A stretch of 64,000 bases of DNA from Rhexocercosporidium sp. MPI-PUGE-AT-0058 (Eukaryota > Ascomycota > Leotiomycetes > Helotiales): NCBI GenBank assembly GCA_020746875.1, contig JAGTJL010000015.1, forward strand, positions 868,001 to 932,000, given 5' to 3'. Shown in pieces: positions 14,655-23,678 of the stretch. The notes beneath the pieces were generated by a model. The model saw only the letters and a program-made list of their open reading frames with translations, did no database searches and had not been told where the DNA came from. Numbering within the stretch: the first letter of the stretch is position 1; every line of letters begins with the position of its first letter. A program made the position numbers and the translations under genes.

Positions 14655-15389
14655 ATGTCCAACACACCTATCACCTCCCTCCCAGGGTATCCATACTTCT
14701 ATGCAATACCAATTAATGGCTACATCCGCGACGGACCCGACAAGAAACCAAAGCGATTCAGCAAAAGCCGTCTCCAAGACCGCCACTCCCTCCTACCACA
14801 ATACACCCCCGCTCCCGCCTGGTCACCATACATCCTCGAGGGCCTCGCTGAACTCGATGGCCTCAATGAGATCCCAAGGCAGATATATCCAGATCACCAA
14901 AGACCTTGCGAAAAGGAAAATGAAAAATATCCGATAAAGCGCCCGCAGACAACACCACCCGAGATGACCCAGAAGCGAAAATCTCGCTTCCCATCCCTGA
15001 AAACGAAATATTCCTGGACGGCGTATAAACCGCAAGTATCGAGCCCACTCTCTTCATCAAGTAGTGTGGATAGTCTCCAAGACCTCTGCACGATCGACGA
15101 ACAAGAACGAGAGCAAGAGCAAGTTAAAGAGCCGGTGCGAGAGAATGCGAGGAGTTTGGACCCGGGAGGTGCGCAGGAGATGGAGGTTGGTAGAGGGGAT
15201 GGTATGGGTGATGAGGAGAGAGTTCAGGTCGCGTTGATTGAGAGTATCTTCTTGATTCTGCATAACCTTCAACCGACTTATTTGCCTCAAACGGAGAGGC
15301 TTGTGTCGGAGGTTGTTCCGAGGCCGTCGAGGAAACATAGGCTTTCTCGGCAGTCGTCTGTGAGGGTGTCGCCTATGTTTACTATGTGA
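14655..15389 (+). CDS. Hypothetical protein, unknown function
   Basis: The frame starts at the ATG at 14655, in the context caacATG (a typical fungal start), and encodes 244 residues. The open frame begins 39 codons earlier at 14538, with a poor start. The N-terminal 50 residues are rich in Pro, Tyr and basic residues. Residues 130-175 are basic then Ser-rich (SSPLSSSSSVDSL). An acidic Glu/Gln stretch follows, then a hydrophobic helix (VALIESIFLILHNLQ) and a basic Arg/Ser tail ending SVRVSPMFTM. It has no signal peptide and no known domain. It is the left neighbour of the UstYa-like gene, with convergent orientation. Whether it belongs to that cluster is unknown. It could also be a spurious frame, although its length and composition favour a real gene. 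Confidence 0.55.
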   Translation: MSNTPITSLPGYPYFYAIPINGYIRDGPDKKPKRFSKSRLQDRHSLLPQYTPAPAWSPYILEGLAELDGLNEIPRQIYPDHQRPCEKENEKYPIKRPQTTPPEMTQKRKSRFPSLKTKYSWTAYKPQVSSPLSSSSSVDSLQDLCTIDEQEREQEQVKEPVRENARSLDPGGAQEMEVGRGDGMGDEERVQVALIESIFLILHNLQPTYLPQTERLVSEVVPRPSRKHRLSRQSSVRVSPMFTM

Positions 15390-15984: not shown

Positions 15985-16937
15985 TCAAGGTATCGATGCA
16001 TAAATAGTATCCCCCACCTGCGGTGGCTTCAAAAAGTCCTCGGGGGTCTTCTCCGGAATCTGCCTCTCCTCTGCCCACCGCCTAATCCCCTCAAAATCCT
16101 TACACTTATGCTCCGTATTAAAATCCACAAACGCCCTCGGAAACTCCCTATCCCACCAAACCTGACCCAGAAGTCCCGTATCAGGAGTACACATCAGCTG
16201 CTGACGGATGATATCCAAACAATGCGATACATGATACTGCACGATGTTGTCTTTGTTGACGAAAGCGCCTTTGCCTTGGGAGCGGTAGTAATCGATGTTG
16301 TAGTAGAGGGATTGCCGCACGAGGTTTAGACAGTGGAGATGGTGTAGGCCTTCGACGTTGGCGGGGAAGCCGCCGCCGTATTTGGGGTTGATCTGTACCT
16401 GGTCAGGTTTGAGGCCGGATTTTGGTGCTTCGCTGACGGGGACGGCGACGCTTCTGTCTGTAGATTTGTTAGAATTTTGACGTTTGGAGAACGGTGAGGA
16501 GGCTTACAGTCGATTCCTAAGGACTCCCAAGCAGCGTCGACTTCAGAATCAGGACCTCCTGGTAGTCTGAAGACATTCTCCTTCATAAATGATCCATTGA
16601 AACGGACCATGTGGTAATCGTTGTCTACCTCCTTCAAAATTGGAGCTTCCCGGTCGTCAGTGGAAGCTTGAGATGTTTAATTTGGTTGGAGGGGGTACTC
16701 ACAGTACTTTTGGACGTGCTCCAAGCAAGATCTATTCGTCCAACGACTTCCAATCCAAGTGCCAAGACCTAGAAATAAAACGGAAAAGAAAATTGGTGAG
16801 ATGATTGCTATCCAGACTGGAACTCCTCGAGCTTGCTTCTTGAATTTTGATCCAGATTGTTGGGAGAGCAGTCCTTCGCAATCATCTGCGGATTGAGAGT
16901 CGCTCTCGCTCTTGTCTTCCACTTGTTGATACTGCAT
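15985..16937 (-). CDS. UstYa-like (DUF3328) oxidase family protein
   Basis: This is a three-exon gene read right to left: exon 1 16937-16703, exon 2 16645-16508, exon 3 16457-15985, giving 281 residues. Introns are 57 nt (CTGAC branch site before the acceptor) and 50 nt (CTAAC branch). A 36-nt version of intron 1 with acceptor at 16667 would add seven residues in frame. The product has a short acidic cytosolic N-terminus and one membrane anchor at about residues 39-63 (VPVWIAIISPIFFSVLFLG). The lumenal domain has FNGSF and EVDAAWESLGI blocks, then HHLHC at 163-167 and HVSHC at 200-204 followed by IIRQQLMC. The two HxxHC motifs define the UstYa family, whose members carry out oxidative cyclisation of ribosomal peptides in ustiloxin-type pathways. 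It faces away from the repeat precursor 1.5 kb to the right, its likely substrate. Confidence 0.93.
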
Positions 16938-18407
16938 CTTGGTTCGGAAACAAGAAAACCTGAAGAAGTTCGTTTTGACAATAAAATTAAGGATCCTTTA
17001 TGAATGGAATCTTTGTCAAGAATTGGCAATGGCTTGCCAAACTGTCGCAAATTGCTCTGAGTACATAAAGAAGACAAAGAGTACAAGAGATATCTCGAAG
17101 AGTCGAAAGTAAGCCTCGCGTACACTATTTACTATTTACAGCCTTGAACTAAAAATCCATGTCCGCATCCCATGACGCAAAATCCTTTCCTTTTGATGTT
17201 CCGATGTTCGTGTCTGCGGAGGGCCTCTGCAGGCGCCATGCTGCATTAGTGTCAACAATCAGCCAGCCAGCCGGCCAGCCAACACGAGCTGTTGGTCTTG
17301 TTTGGCGCACGCATGCAACAGCCTCACTCATCATAGACTTTTTAGATTGACAGAAATATTAAATTCTGGTACTCAGCCAGCAGGATACGAGTAATGCTGA
17401 CTCCCTGCCACTCAATCACCCCGCATCACGTAGTGTTACCCCTCCATACGTAGGGACTGTCAGGGTCCTGCCAAGGCGCCACTCCTCCGCTTACATCTAC
17501 GACGTTTCTCAAAATAGACTTCCGAAGACTTCATGGCATCACTCGTTGACATCAACCAGACTCACATCTTGATGGCTCACTTTGTCTGGGGTAGCTTCAT
17601 GGTCTTGCGAGGTCATTGATAAGTAGTGCATTCTGAAAGCTGCTGATGGCATGAAGTCCGCGAGTGCCGTACAGATGAAGCTCCATGGCCAGAAGGTCGA
17701 ATTGTCTTCAGCTCATACTATGGTACCACACCGTTACATTCCTCGGCTATGCGCAGAACAAGCTTCTCCAGACTCTAAGTACGATATACGGTGTGTTGCG
17801 CACTCGCCAATACCGGTGGCGTTTTGTTATCATGCAAGGCTACGCCTCGATACGAGATTCAAAGTCAACATTGAGCCTAGCTCCCGCACTGCCTTCCCAG
17901 AAGTAGCTTATCGTGAGCATCATCTGACAAGGCATCAAAGCAATCTGCATGTACCTATTGATTGCAAATACGAAAGTCTGCATTAGGCTCCACGAGGAAA
18001 AGTTACTTCCATATCGCCGATTGGGAATTAGGTCATGTTAGTCGCCATCGCGAATCAACGTTGCGTCCTTAGCACGGAATTTGACTAAGGATGCTCGCAA
18101 CGAATGCTTCGAAAGTTCGGCTGTTGCTGTCAATACGGGCTGTGTGTAGACGATGATCTCACGTCGTTCCCATGGATGCGACTTACTGAGGAACTGGGAA
18201 GAGTAACCTCCTCAGGGCAAGGCTACTTTCGTCCACAGCATCCTGCCTCTGCACGTCATCTTCTCTTGGACTTTAGCAAATGAGGAGCTGTGGATATCTC
18301 TATAAATCCCCTCTTCCGCATGCTGAGATGACTTTTCCGTTTCTCATCATCTTCATCGAAACTCACTTCCTCCTTTCCATCTCCATTCATACCCTACATA
18401 CATCAAA
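16938..18407. promoter_or_regulatory. Divergent promoter region between the UstYa-like and precursor genes
   Basis: The 1.47 kb between the two divergent starts contains no supported gene. A GC-rich run near 17260-17285 (agccagccagccggccagcc) includes a small palindrome and could be a regulator site, but this is a guess. A TATA-like element precedes the precursor gene (separate entry). Confidence 0.4.
18301..18307 (+). promoter_or_regulatory. TATA-like box of the precursor gene
   Basis: The sequence tataaat lies 107 bases upstream of the precursor ATG, with a pyrimidine-rich tract (ttcctcctttccatctcc) between it and the start. That layout is typical of strongly expressed fungal genes for secreted proteins. 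Confidence 0.5.
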
Positions 18408-19669
18408 ATGCGTTTCTCCAGCCTTACCATCCTCGCAGCTGCTTCTGCAGTATGTGTCTCTGCTATGCCAGCTCCAGCTCCTGAAGCTGCCCCCGAAGCT
18501 GCGCCAGTTGACTATGGCAAATATGGCGGTATGTGCCCTCGAGCCAGTTTAAAAGCGCTGAACAAGATTGCTAACTTTGCCTTCAGACTACGGTAGTAAG
18601 TGATATTCGGCCCTCAACCTGAGTAGAACATGTTCCTAACATTTCCTTACAGACTATGGCAAATACAACAACTACCCAGCTCCCCCAAAGCCTTCCCCAC
18701 CTCCAAAGGGTACGTTCATCTCTCAAAAAGGATACAGAATATTCCTGTCTTTTCCATCCAGATTGACCAGCAATTCTGACATCGAACCACAGGATATGGA
18801 TCTTACGGAAGCTACGGATCCTACAAGCGTGAGCCAGAAGCCGACGCTGCTCCTGAGCCCGCCGCCGAAGCAGAGATCGTAGAGAAGCGTACCGACTACG
18901 GAAAGTACGGCGGTAAGTTAACCCCAATCTCAGCTTCTAGCACAGTCAACCTAACTTACGACGTTCTCAAATAGACTACGGCAACTATGGAAAGTACAAC
19001 AACTACCCAGCTCCCCCAAAGCCTTCCCCACCTCCAAAAGGTACGTGCATCTCTCAAAACATTAGCTGTTGAGCAACGCTGACCTCAGATTCTTTAGGAT
19101 ACGGCTCTTAGTGCGTACTACCTACTTCCTGCTTTTCTTAGGACACTTCACACTGTCCAACCCATCACTAGTCAATACTGATCTATCTACTGCAGTGGTA
19201 GCTACGGCGCTTACAAGCGCGAGCCAGAAGCCGAAGCTGCTCCTGAGCCCGCTGCCGAGGCAGAGGTAGTCGAGAAGCGTACTGATTACGGCAAGTATGG
19301 CGACTATGGCAGTGAGTACCCCCCAATCAGTCCTGCTCTATATCGTTTCTCATCAAATCACTAACTACCTTTTCAGACTACGGAAAGTACAACAACTACC
19401 CACCCGCTCCCCCCAAGCCTACCCCAACTCCAGCTCCAGGTAAGTCTCGAGTATTTTCCTCGTTTGTCATATGATTCCGGTTGACCAGGATCGTCACTCT
19501 CTTCTTTCCTTCCTTCCTTCTTTCCTTCCTTCCTTCCTTCCTTCTTCCTTCCTTCCTTTCTTTATTTTGAGAACATGCTGACGCAGATCATGCAGGGTAT
19601 GGAACTTACGGCAGCTATGGCTCCTACAAGCGTGTCGAGGCTGAGGTTGAGGCTGAGGCTGAGGCCTAA
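18408..19669 (+). CDS. Secreted three-repeat Kex2-type peptide precursor, tyrosine-rich (candidate RiPP precursor)
   Basis: I built this gene as nine exons: 18408-18528, 18587-18595, 18653-18709, 18793-18912, 18975-19040, 19098-19110, 19196-19311, 19377-19439, 19596-19669. They total 639 nt and 212 residues. All splice sites are GT-AG and all frames agree. Residues 1-19 are a signal peptide (MRFSSLTILAAASAVCVSA). Three repeats follow, at 35-73, 96-135 and 158-199. Each consists of XYG triplets (DYGKYGDYGNYGKYNNYP), a proline spacer such as APPKPSPPPK, and GYGSYGSYGSY. Lys-Arg pairs stand at 74-75, 94-95, 136-137, 156-157 and 200-201. Linkers of Glu-Pro and Glu-Ala pairs separate the repeats. 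The protein contains no cysteine after the signal. Signal, dibasic sites and repeated cores match Kex2-processed repeat proteins and dikaritin precursors. A structural wall protein is the main alternative. Confidence 0.9.
19501..19563 (+). repeat. Polypyrimidine (CCTT)n tract in the last intron
   Basis: About 60 bases of pure C/T made of ccttccttcctt units lie inside intron 8 of the precursor gene (19440-19595), about 30 bases before its acceptor. The tract may serve as an extended polypyrimidine signal and is likely to vary in length between strains. Confidence 0.85.
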
Positions 19670-22210: not shown

Positions 22211-23678
22211 ATGGAGGCTCACAATGCAATCGTTTTAAACGATCTGTCCAGGTACCTGGTTCCCGATCAACCAGGAGAAAGACCAGAGGAAGAACCATCT
22301 CATCAGGAATTCTCACTTCCACGAGCTGATAGTGGAAAAGATGCATGGTTGTTCTTGGCTGCTGGTTTTGTAATTGAAGCTCTTGTGTGGGGTAGGTACA
22401 GTGGACATTCTTAACATGCCGAAGACATGTCTCATGTATTAAGGAAACCTTGTGTAACAATTCATTTAGGCTTTCCATTCTCCTTTGGTGTCTTCCAAGA
22501 GTATTACAGCCACCATGAGCTGTTCTCATCGAACTCCTCTGGCATAGCTATCATAGGCACAACAGCCACAGTACATTTAAAACCTCATCCCGTCTTATCA
22601 CACACCATTCTGACAAACCCAGGGAATAATGTACATGAGCGGCTTGATACTTTTCCCAGCATATAAAAAATTCCCTCACCTAGCAAACAACATTAAATGG
22701 GCCGGCCTCCCCCTCATGGCAGCCGGTCTTTTCGCCGCCTCCTTCGCCCAAAACGTGTCACACCTCGTACTCACCCAAGGGGCTATCTATGCCCTCGGAG
22801 GATGCATCATCTACTACCCTACACTCTTGTATATCGACGAGTGGTTCGTGCAGCGCAAAGGACTCGCTTTTGGGATTATGTGGGCAGGCACTGGAGCAGG
22901 CGGTTTGATTATCCCGTTCGTGCTGAATGGACTTCTTCAAAGATGGGGATTCCGTACCACATTGAGGATCTGGGCTACTGCTCTCATCCTTCTCTCTTCA
23001 CCCCTGATCTACTTCCTGCGTCCTCGAATCCCGGTATCGAGAAATCCGACTTCCCAGCGATATGTTGGACTCGGGTTCTTGAAGTCACCCTCTTTCTGGC
23101 TCTTGCAACTGGGACTTGTGATTGAGTCTTTGGGCTATTTCATACCCAGCTTGTACCTACCGACATTTGCCAGCTCGCTGGGTCTGTCGAGATCGGTTGG
23201 GACGTTGTTAGTTGCGCTGTTGAATGCAGCTGGAGTCGTGGCTACAGTCTTAATGGGGATGCTCTGTGATCGATTTCACGTCACGACAGTGATTCTGCTT
23301 TCTACTGTCGGAGCCACCATTTCTGTGTTCCTGCTCTGGGGTCTCTCCACCGCGTTGCCGCTTCTCATCGTCTTTGCGATCGTATACGGATTCTTTGCTG
23401 GAGGTTTCGTGAGTACCAACGCAGGTGTGCTGAAGATGGTCAAAGGAGAGGATCCAACTGTTGATATGGGACTCTTGATTGGGATCATCAGCGCGGCTAG
23501 AGGTGTTGGTGCTGTTGCTTCTGGGCCGTTAAGCGAGGCATTGTTGAAGGGTGAGACGTGGAAGGGAGAGGCGGGGTTGGGATATGGGAGTGGATATGGA
23601 GGCTTGATTGTCTTTACGGGTGTGACTGCTGGGTTAGGAGGTGTAGGGTTCTTGGGGAAAAGATTGGGGTGGATGTAA
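22211..23678 (+). CDS. MFS transporter, monocarboxylate-transporter-like
   Basis: This is a three-exon gene: 22211-22391, 22470-22570, 22623-23678, giving 445 residues. The introns are 78 and 52 nt. A hydrophilic N-terminus of about 45 residues is followed by TM1 (DAWLFLAAGFVIEALVWGFP) and the fungal MCT-like block FSFGVFQEYY. About eleven further membrane segments follow. The loop GFRTTLRIWA corresponds to the conserved MFS loop between TM4 and TM5. The large central loop (RPRIPVSRNPTSQR) splits the two halves. Relatives are plasma-membrane or vacuolar proton-coupled transporters of monocarboxylates or secondary metabolites. It sits 2.5 kb right of the peptide precursor and could export its product, but this rests on position alone. 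Substrate unknown. Confidence 0.88.

Follow-up and report, generated by a model that had tools for sequence, protein, structure and literature searches.

A predicted tyrosine-ladder repeat precursor paired with a UstYa-family gene in Rhexocercosporidium sp. MPI-PUGE-AT-0058

The DNA analysed here, referred to as the window, is a stretch of 64,000 nucleotides (C7:868001-932000) in the 62.7-Mb, 60-contig genome of Rhexocercosporidium sp. MPI-PUGE-AT-0058. It carries two divergently oriented genes, one encoding a repeat precursor rich in Tyr-Gly-x and the other a protein of the UstYa/DUF3328 family (Table 1). The splice models of both genes rely on the GT-AG consensus only and the genes are predictions. 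A sequence-only reading had located the pair at this place and counted three repeats of about 40 residues and five Lys-Arg sites in the precursor; the 212-residue splice model confirmed these positions and counts, and the cores are 40, 40 and 42 residues long. The signal peptide proposed by the same reading is likely, as the N-terminus is hydrophobic and resembles a signal peptide when judged by eye.

The precursor gene contains eight introns, all GT-AG, seven of them in phase 1 and one in phase 2, and ends at position 19669, the final base of its stop codon. Two of its predicted exons are as short as 9 nt (18587-18595) and 13 nt (19098-19110). Because of such exons, gene predictors may miss or break precursors of this type, and the family may be larger than annotated. 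A CCTT-type microsatellite lies inside the last intron (19440-19595). Every core is composed of a block of six tyrosines and a block of four, each with an exact spacing of three residues, separated by a proline-rich linker, and Cys is absent from all cores. Of the 29 Tyr-Tyr intervals in the precursor, 24 equal 3, whilst 20,000 shuffles of residues 20-212 gave at most 11. The calculated masses of the unmodified cores 1, 2 and 3 are 4386.98, 4372.97 and 4558.03 Da; a cross-link would subtract 2.016 Da and a hydroxylation would add 15.995 Da. Repeats 1 and 2 are identical at 41 of 62 codons and differ by 17 synonymous and 4 non-synonymous changes. The cores are separated by spacers in which x-Ala/x-Pro dipeptides follow each other in phase; the same pattern was seen by eye ahead of core 1, after the likely signal peptide, and the tail beyond the fifth Lys-Arg site is devoid of it. 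Against Pfam, the precursor gave only a DUF2500 match below the cut-off (17.3 vs 33.5 bits).

The UstYa gene, whose stop codon ends on the minus strand at position 15985, encodes a member of the family (PF11807, 181.5 bits for a cut-off of 25) and, as the sequence-only reading had noticed, contains both HxxHC motifs. These are intact in 52 of 54 aligned UstYa rows. One membrane helix is likely near the N-terminus, as judged from an AlphaFold2 model (mean pLDDT 76.6, pTM 0.64) of the homologue P0029, which is 88% identical to the window UstYa; in this model an N-terminal helix of membrane length spans residues 41-75 and both motifs are found in helices behind it. CctR, another member of the family, is anchored in the membrane with a proposed lumenal orientation, needs copper and O2, and requires its HxxHC motifs for activity (PMC12435403). 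By analogy with CctR, the window UstYa is predicted to be a copper-dependent oxidase. In the region shared upstream of the two genes, a repeat scan revealed short chance-like pairs only, and a scan for promoters and terminators of bacterial type is not meaningful for a fungus.

Table 1. Features of the pair in the window and of related pairs and precursors
Feature	Position or identifier	Strand	Remarks
UstYa/DUF3328 gene, 288 residues	15985..16937	-	splice model; three exons: 16937-16703, 16666-16508, 16457-15985
First HxxHC motif, HHLHC	16330..16344	-	residues 170-174; likely copper ligands; from sequence
Second HxxHC motif, HVSHC	16219..16233	-	residues 207-211; from sequence
Shared upstream region	16938..18407		1,470 bp between divergent start codons; 1,392 bp in second pair (L026)
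Precursor gene, 212 residues	18408..19669	+	nine predicted exons, consensus splicing
Precursor exons	18408-18528, 18587-18595, 18653-18709, 18793-18912, 18975-19040, 19098-19110, 19196-19311, 19377-19439, 19596-19669	+	splice model
Core 1, 40 residues	18507..18824	+	ten Tyr; introns inside
First spacer	18825..18890	+	Lys-Arg, seven in-phase x-Ala/x-Pro dipeptides, Lys-Arg; from sequence
Core 2, 40 residues	18891..19214	+	ten Tyr; introns inside
Second spacer	19215..19280	+	like the first, seven in-phase dipeptides between Lys-Arg sites; from sequence
Core 3, 42 residues	19281..19627	+	ten Tyr; introns inside
Fifth Lys-Arg site	19628..19633	+	end of core 3; from sequence
Second UstYa/tyrosine-ladder pair, L026	G000:C5:799500-809400		divergent layout
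UstYa of L026	3938-4997 of the region	+	
Precursor of L026	2545-1917 of the region	-	
Amylocarpus precursor and UstYa matches	P0001, P0053		contig of 72,057 for both
Acephala precursor and UstYa matches	P0005, P0042		contig of 848,192 for both
A. californicus precursor and UstYa matches	P0175, P0147		contig of 141,816 for both
Homologues with a C-terminal tail	P0009, P0010, P0016, P0019, P0021, P0022, P0150, P0170, P0177, P0181		

A PF11807 profile search of the genome gave 57 exon-level matches, and the matches beyond the window were covered by 25 fetched regions (20 of 9.9 kb and 5 of 5.5-6 kb, the regions L034-L038 covering ~2.5-3 kb per side of the UstYa match). When these regions were compared with the window UstYa, one close locus was found, L026 on contig C5, with 54-64% identity per exon. 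The remaining regions showed 21-48% over mostly shorter stretches, and L038 showed no match. The UstYa of L026 has 286 residues and is 57% identical to that of the window across 231 residues. Divergent from it lies a precursor of 124 residues, with a short tail after its final Lys-Arg, KRAIGDFVKRVFG. In this second precursor 13 of 17 Tyr intervals equal 3, including a run of seven, which was matched by none of 20,000 shuffles. Since the L026 precursor was found through its UstYa neighbour, its ladder constitutes independent evidence. No Tyr-Gly ladder was present in the six frames of the other 24 UstYa regions, L036 having one Tyr run without Gly. Genome-wide, a DNA pattern encoding Y-G-x-Y-G-x-Y-G was matched 59 times and its reversed control 63 times, mostly in one 9-bp satellite; among places that are not satellite-like, several matches occurred together in the two precursors only, and a few single ones lie elsewhere. 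The satellite, TATGGTAGG, occurs on contigs C7, C16, C37, C56 and others and can be mistaken for a Tyr-Gly ladder when DNA patterns are searched.

Repeats of the Kex2 type were scanned for in 21 UstYa regions (20 fetched regions and the window). By script a cluster was found in seven, and in six once L018, a doubtful cluster whose contexts contain stop codons, was dropped; a small control of five UstYa-free window stretches gave none. Tandem repeats of this type lacking a tyrosine ladder occur within the 10-kb UstYa regions L016, L017, L021, L023 and L028 (on C34, C56, C2, C58 and C7, respectively).

On the side of the precursor away from the UstYa gene, an MFS transporter frame (PF07690, 72 bits) is present at 22614-23675. 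It is probably outside the unit, as the membrane-protein frame beside the UstYa of the second pair looks different. The next gene-like frame past the UstYa gene is an open frame of 244 residues (14655-15386) with no Pfam match.

The precursor as query, with the best 7,999 word-sharing candidates scored, gave 28 homologues at E <= 0.001, and an 18-row alignment as query gave 43 at E <= 0.01, 33 of which were new, for a total of 61. A run of at least four tyrosines at a spacing of three is present in 52 of them, a [KR]R site in 58 and both in 50, the ladder counts being partly circular since the query itself carries the ladder; at least one of the 61, P0168, looks unrelated. The named species among the homologues are Amylocarpus, Acephala, Rachicladosporium, Exophiala sideris, two Ascochyta, Xylographa, Aureobasidium, Zymoseptoria, Dendryphion and Aspergillus californicus. 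In 10 of the 61 the last Lys-Arg is followed by a short hydrophobic/basic tail similar to that of the L026 precursor, which might represent an amphipathic peptide of its own; the window precursor is without such a tail.

The UstYa search gave 583 matches at E <= 1e-10, and taxa and partners were checked among the best 120 of the 583. Pairing could be tested in three other genomes, at the level of the contig. In all three named genomes with both partners among the matches listed (Amylocarpus, Acephala and A. californicus), the partners are on contigs of equal size, which in the same species we took to be a shared contig. The UstYa partner of the other eight named precursor species is outside the best 120 of 583, and no inference was drawn from this, since a partner outside that list means nothing. 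By its own terms, the sequence-only reading would be refuted if precursor homologues in most genomes had no UstYa-type gene nearby; this was not encountered in the three other genomes, at contig level. Chance adjacency of the precursor and UstYa genes was rejected on account of the L026 pair, the 24 ladder-free UstYa regions and the equal-size contigs elsewhere. Combined, these results strongly support the pairing and the earlier claim that the two genes belong together: a paralogous second pair, UstYa regions free of ladders and equal-size contigs in 3/3 testable genomes indicate a link beyond chance.

The enzyme is highly conserved. Its closest relatives among the matches listed are those of Leptodontidium (88% identity), Cadophora (84%) and Rhynchosporium (81%), and residues 91-288 are 59-92% identical to 53 other alignment rows, which presumably span Leotiomycetes, Eurotiomycetes, Dothideomycetes, Lecanoromycetes and Geoglossum. 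Powdery mildews are also among the matches listed for UstYa; powdery mildew precursors were not among the precursor matches, in a homologue search limited to the best-scored candidates. In a UstYa tree, 24 rows, all Leotiomycetes, formed a clade with support of 100/99, within which four powdery mildews group together, and Pseudogymnoascus and two Xylogone rows fell outside this clade. The L026 UstYa grouped with Xylographa, Ptychographa, Geoglossum, Cryomyces and further rows (95/95). As two of the seven outgroup pieces were read on the wrong strand and all seven were very long-branched, the tree was not used to separate the clade from other UstYa proteins. No relatives were found in scans of viral contigs and prokaryote contigs. 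In the PDB, the best hit of a sequence search had an E of 0.23 and none of 30 fold-search matches reached E <= 0.001.

The spacers provide an indication of how the precursor may be processed. In 63 sequences (the 61 homologues, the window precursor and the second precursor), 117 [KR]R sites are followed by a spacer of at least 4 residues. After these sites Ala or Pro occupies 411 of 746 even spacer positions compared to 164 of 791 odd ones, and 61 of the 117 spacers start with at least two in-phase dipeptides. This is the phase expected for a dipeptidyl aminopeptidase of the Ste13 type. A P domain of the Kex2 type is matched once in the genome, and DPP4-type matches occur at two loci.

We consider it probable, on balance, that the two genes encode a secreted repeat precursor and a UstYa protein that cross-links its tyrosines. 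This rests on the observed motifs, tyrosine spacing, spacer phase, divergent layout and second pair, and we infer secretion, processing, the role of copper, cross-linking, the type of helix and the biological role. The precursor would enter the secretory pathway, where a membrane-anchored, lumenal UstYa would oxidise its tyrosines, most likely by cross-linking them. Kex2 would cleave C-terminal to the Lys-Arg pairs, a Kex1-type carboxypeptidase would trim the pairs and a Ste13-type dipeptidyl aminopeptidase would remove the x-Ala/x-Pro spacers, leaving three nearly identical peptides of 40-42 residues with ten tyrosines each. A polyproline-II helix has three residues per turn; if the tyrosine blocks adopted it, each would present one stripe of tyrosines, an idea based on general knowledge and the spacing of three. 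The proline-rich linker might then let the two stripes face each other, an arrangement suited to staple-like cross-links. Oxidation of tyrosines, most likely by cross-linking, is suggested by asperipin, which is cross-linked at Tyr (PMC9233826), and by the enrichment of Tyr in precursors with DUF3328 neighbours, 65.6% vs 38.2% (PMC7329392).

Several points weigh against this proposal. Splicing of both genes follows the consensus only, the ladder counts in homologues share the circularity mentioned above, the A. californicus precursor is a weak match (E 5.6e-5) with a single core, and pairing was checked in three other genomes only, at contig level. Known dikaritin cores are much shorter than 40-42 residues. 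In addition, members of the UstYa family also hydroxylate, as CctR does, halogenate or isomerise (PMC12435403). These activities raise a smaller but appreciable chance that the window UstYa modifies the cores by hydroxylation (DOPA-like), desaturation or halogenation instead of cross-linking them, yielding linear peptides that may adhere to the cell surface or make it harder. Tyrosines exposed at regular intervals would suit such attachment. A point modification would nevertheless leave the two-block layout and the proline-rich linker without a clear purpose, and the UstYa products reported for ribosomal repeat precursors are macrocycles (PMC7329392, PMC9233826).

The two gene types, and the Kex2-type repeats in 6/21 UstYa regions including the window, would also fit a lineage-specific toxin cluster of the classic dikaritin kind whose cores are unusually long. 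We regard this as unlikely, because matches to tyrosinase and S41 peptidase are absent from C7, the enzyme is 59-92% identical in 53 relatives of several classes, and it is kept in powdery mildews, in which much of secondary metabolism is reported to be lost, Blumeria hordei having only eight candidate genes (PMC12550465). A full ustiloxin-type cluster was rejected by a search that covered both enzymes: the 23 exon-level tyrosinase matches of the genome include none on C7 or C5, and S41 peptidase has no match on C7 and two weak ones on C5, >350 kb from the second pair. Less likely again is that the precursor is secreted as a linear peptide for structure or signalling and that its UstYa neighbour acts on something else. 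Although 78% of Kex2-processed repeat proteins reportedly have no DUF3328 gene within 15 genes (PMC7329392), the occurrence in one genome of two independent pairs with the same divergent layout, and the equal-size contigs in three other genomes, argue against this reading. A mating pheromone precursor of the alpha type, with which the present one shares a signal-peptide-like start, repeats, Kex2 sites and in-phase Ste13-type dipeptides, is very improbable and was rejected on the core sequence. Alpha pheromones belong to a class of 9-24 residues and in Leotiomycetes carry two conserved Cys (PMC6339444), whereas the cores here have 40-42 residues without Cys, lack a pheromone core and have a UstYa partner; nearly all pheromone genes are described as lacking DUF3328 neighbours (PMC7329392).

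The pair can be compared to known systems. With the dikaritins (ustiloxin, phomopsin, asperipin-2a; victorin) it shares a Kex2-site repeat precursor beside a UstYa/DUF3328 gene, at 1,470 bp in the window and 1,392 bp in the second pair, and Tyr in the cores. It differs by long cores, in place of short ones, with ten evenly spaced tyrosines, and by an enzyme conserved across several fungal classes. The sequence-only reading had stated that these two gene types suffice to define such a cluster, which is too strong: ustiloxin and phomopsin are reported to need a tyrosinase as well, and asperipin-2a to have one DUF3328 gene (PMC7329392). The contig of the pair has no match to a tyrosinase, as found with ustiloxin and phomopsin, or to an S41 peptidase. 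The dikaritin-like reading of the locus as a ribosomally synthesized and post-translationally modified peptide (RiPP) is partly supported, as it agrees with the gene pairing and disagrees with core length and tyrosinase; owing to these two differences we do not file the pair as a dikaritin, though it would work like a dikaritin system. Unlike the window pair, other UstYa loci of this genome have tyrosinase matches within ~15 kb (G000:C1:3547408, C58:798805 and C15:68576) and look like fuller ustiloxin-type clusters.

Given its likely signal peptide, the precursor would fit the definition of KEPs, the Kex2-processed repeat proteins, that neighbour a DUF3328 gene (Umemura 2020; Le Marquer 2019), its three repeats being split by Kex2 sites (five Lys-Arg) where at least three repeats are called for. 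KEPs amount to 7,878 proteins, 22% of which have such a neighbour (PMC7329392), and include a motif class of 25-50 residues (PMC6339444). The tyrosine-ladder family may be among the 838 published KEP types; no such family was described in the titles and abstracts of the literature searched, subscription papers being outside its coverage, and exact precursor peptide strings retrieved one unrelated paper. The epichloecyclins (GigA) similarly have a repeat precursor, likely Kex2 processing and a tyrosine cross-link (PMC9233826), but are nonapeptides without a ladder. By its description, Cin3 of Venturia inaequalis, a putative dikaritin precursor, is also alike: a repeat precursor and former effector candidate assigned to a DUF3328 cluster (PMC9632046).

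Pairs of a precursor and a DUF3328 gene were already known; what is new are the long ladder cores, the two paralogous pairs and the deeply conserved enzyme. A new peptide class, as suggested by the sequence-only reading, is possible, and the system is probably old and unexplored. That the enzyme is conserved suggests a basic function in the fungus, at the cell surface or in signalling, rather than a strain-specific toxin. As a more tentative proposal, which we consider possible but short of probable, the pair would belong to a RiPP class that is ancient, has been passed on mostly vertically among filamentous ascomycetes and is distinct from the toxin dikaritins. Its members would be tyrosine ladders of ~40 residues whose two stripes are zipped by a dedicated UstYa clade, retained by powdery mildews despite their loss of most secondary metabolism, and would serve the fungus itself at its surface or as signals; the two paralogous pairs would show the module diversifying as a unit. 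Fungal RiPPs made by UstYa proteins are known mainly as toxins of few lineages. An enzyme that powdery mildews retain and that is ~60-70% identical from one fungal class to another would imply that this chemistry has a basic fungal function as well, and the pair offers a clear enzyme and substrate, with repeated and evenly spaced tyrosines, for studying the choice of sites in a recently recognised copper family.

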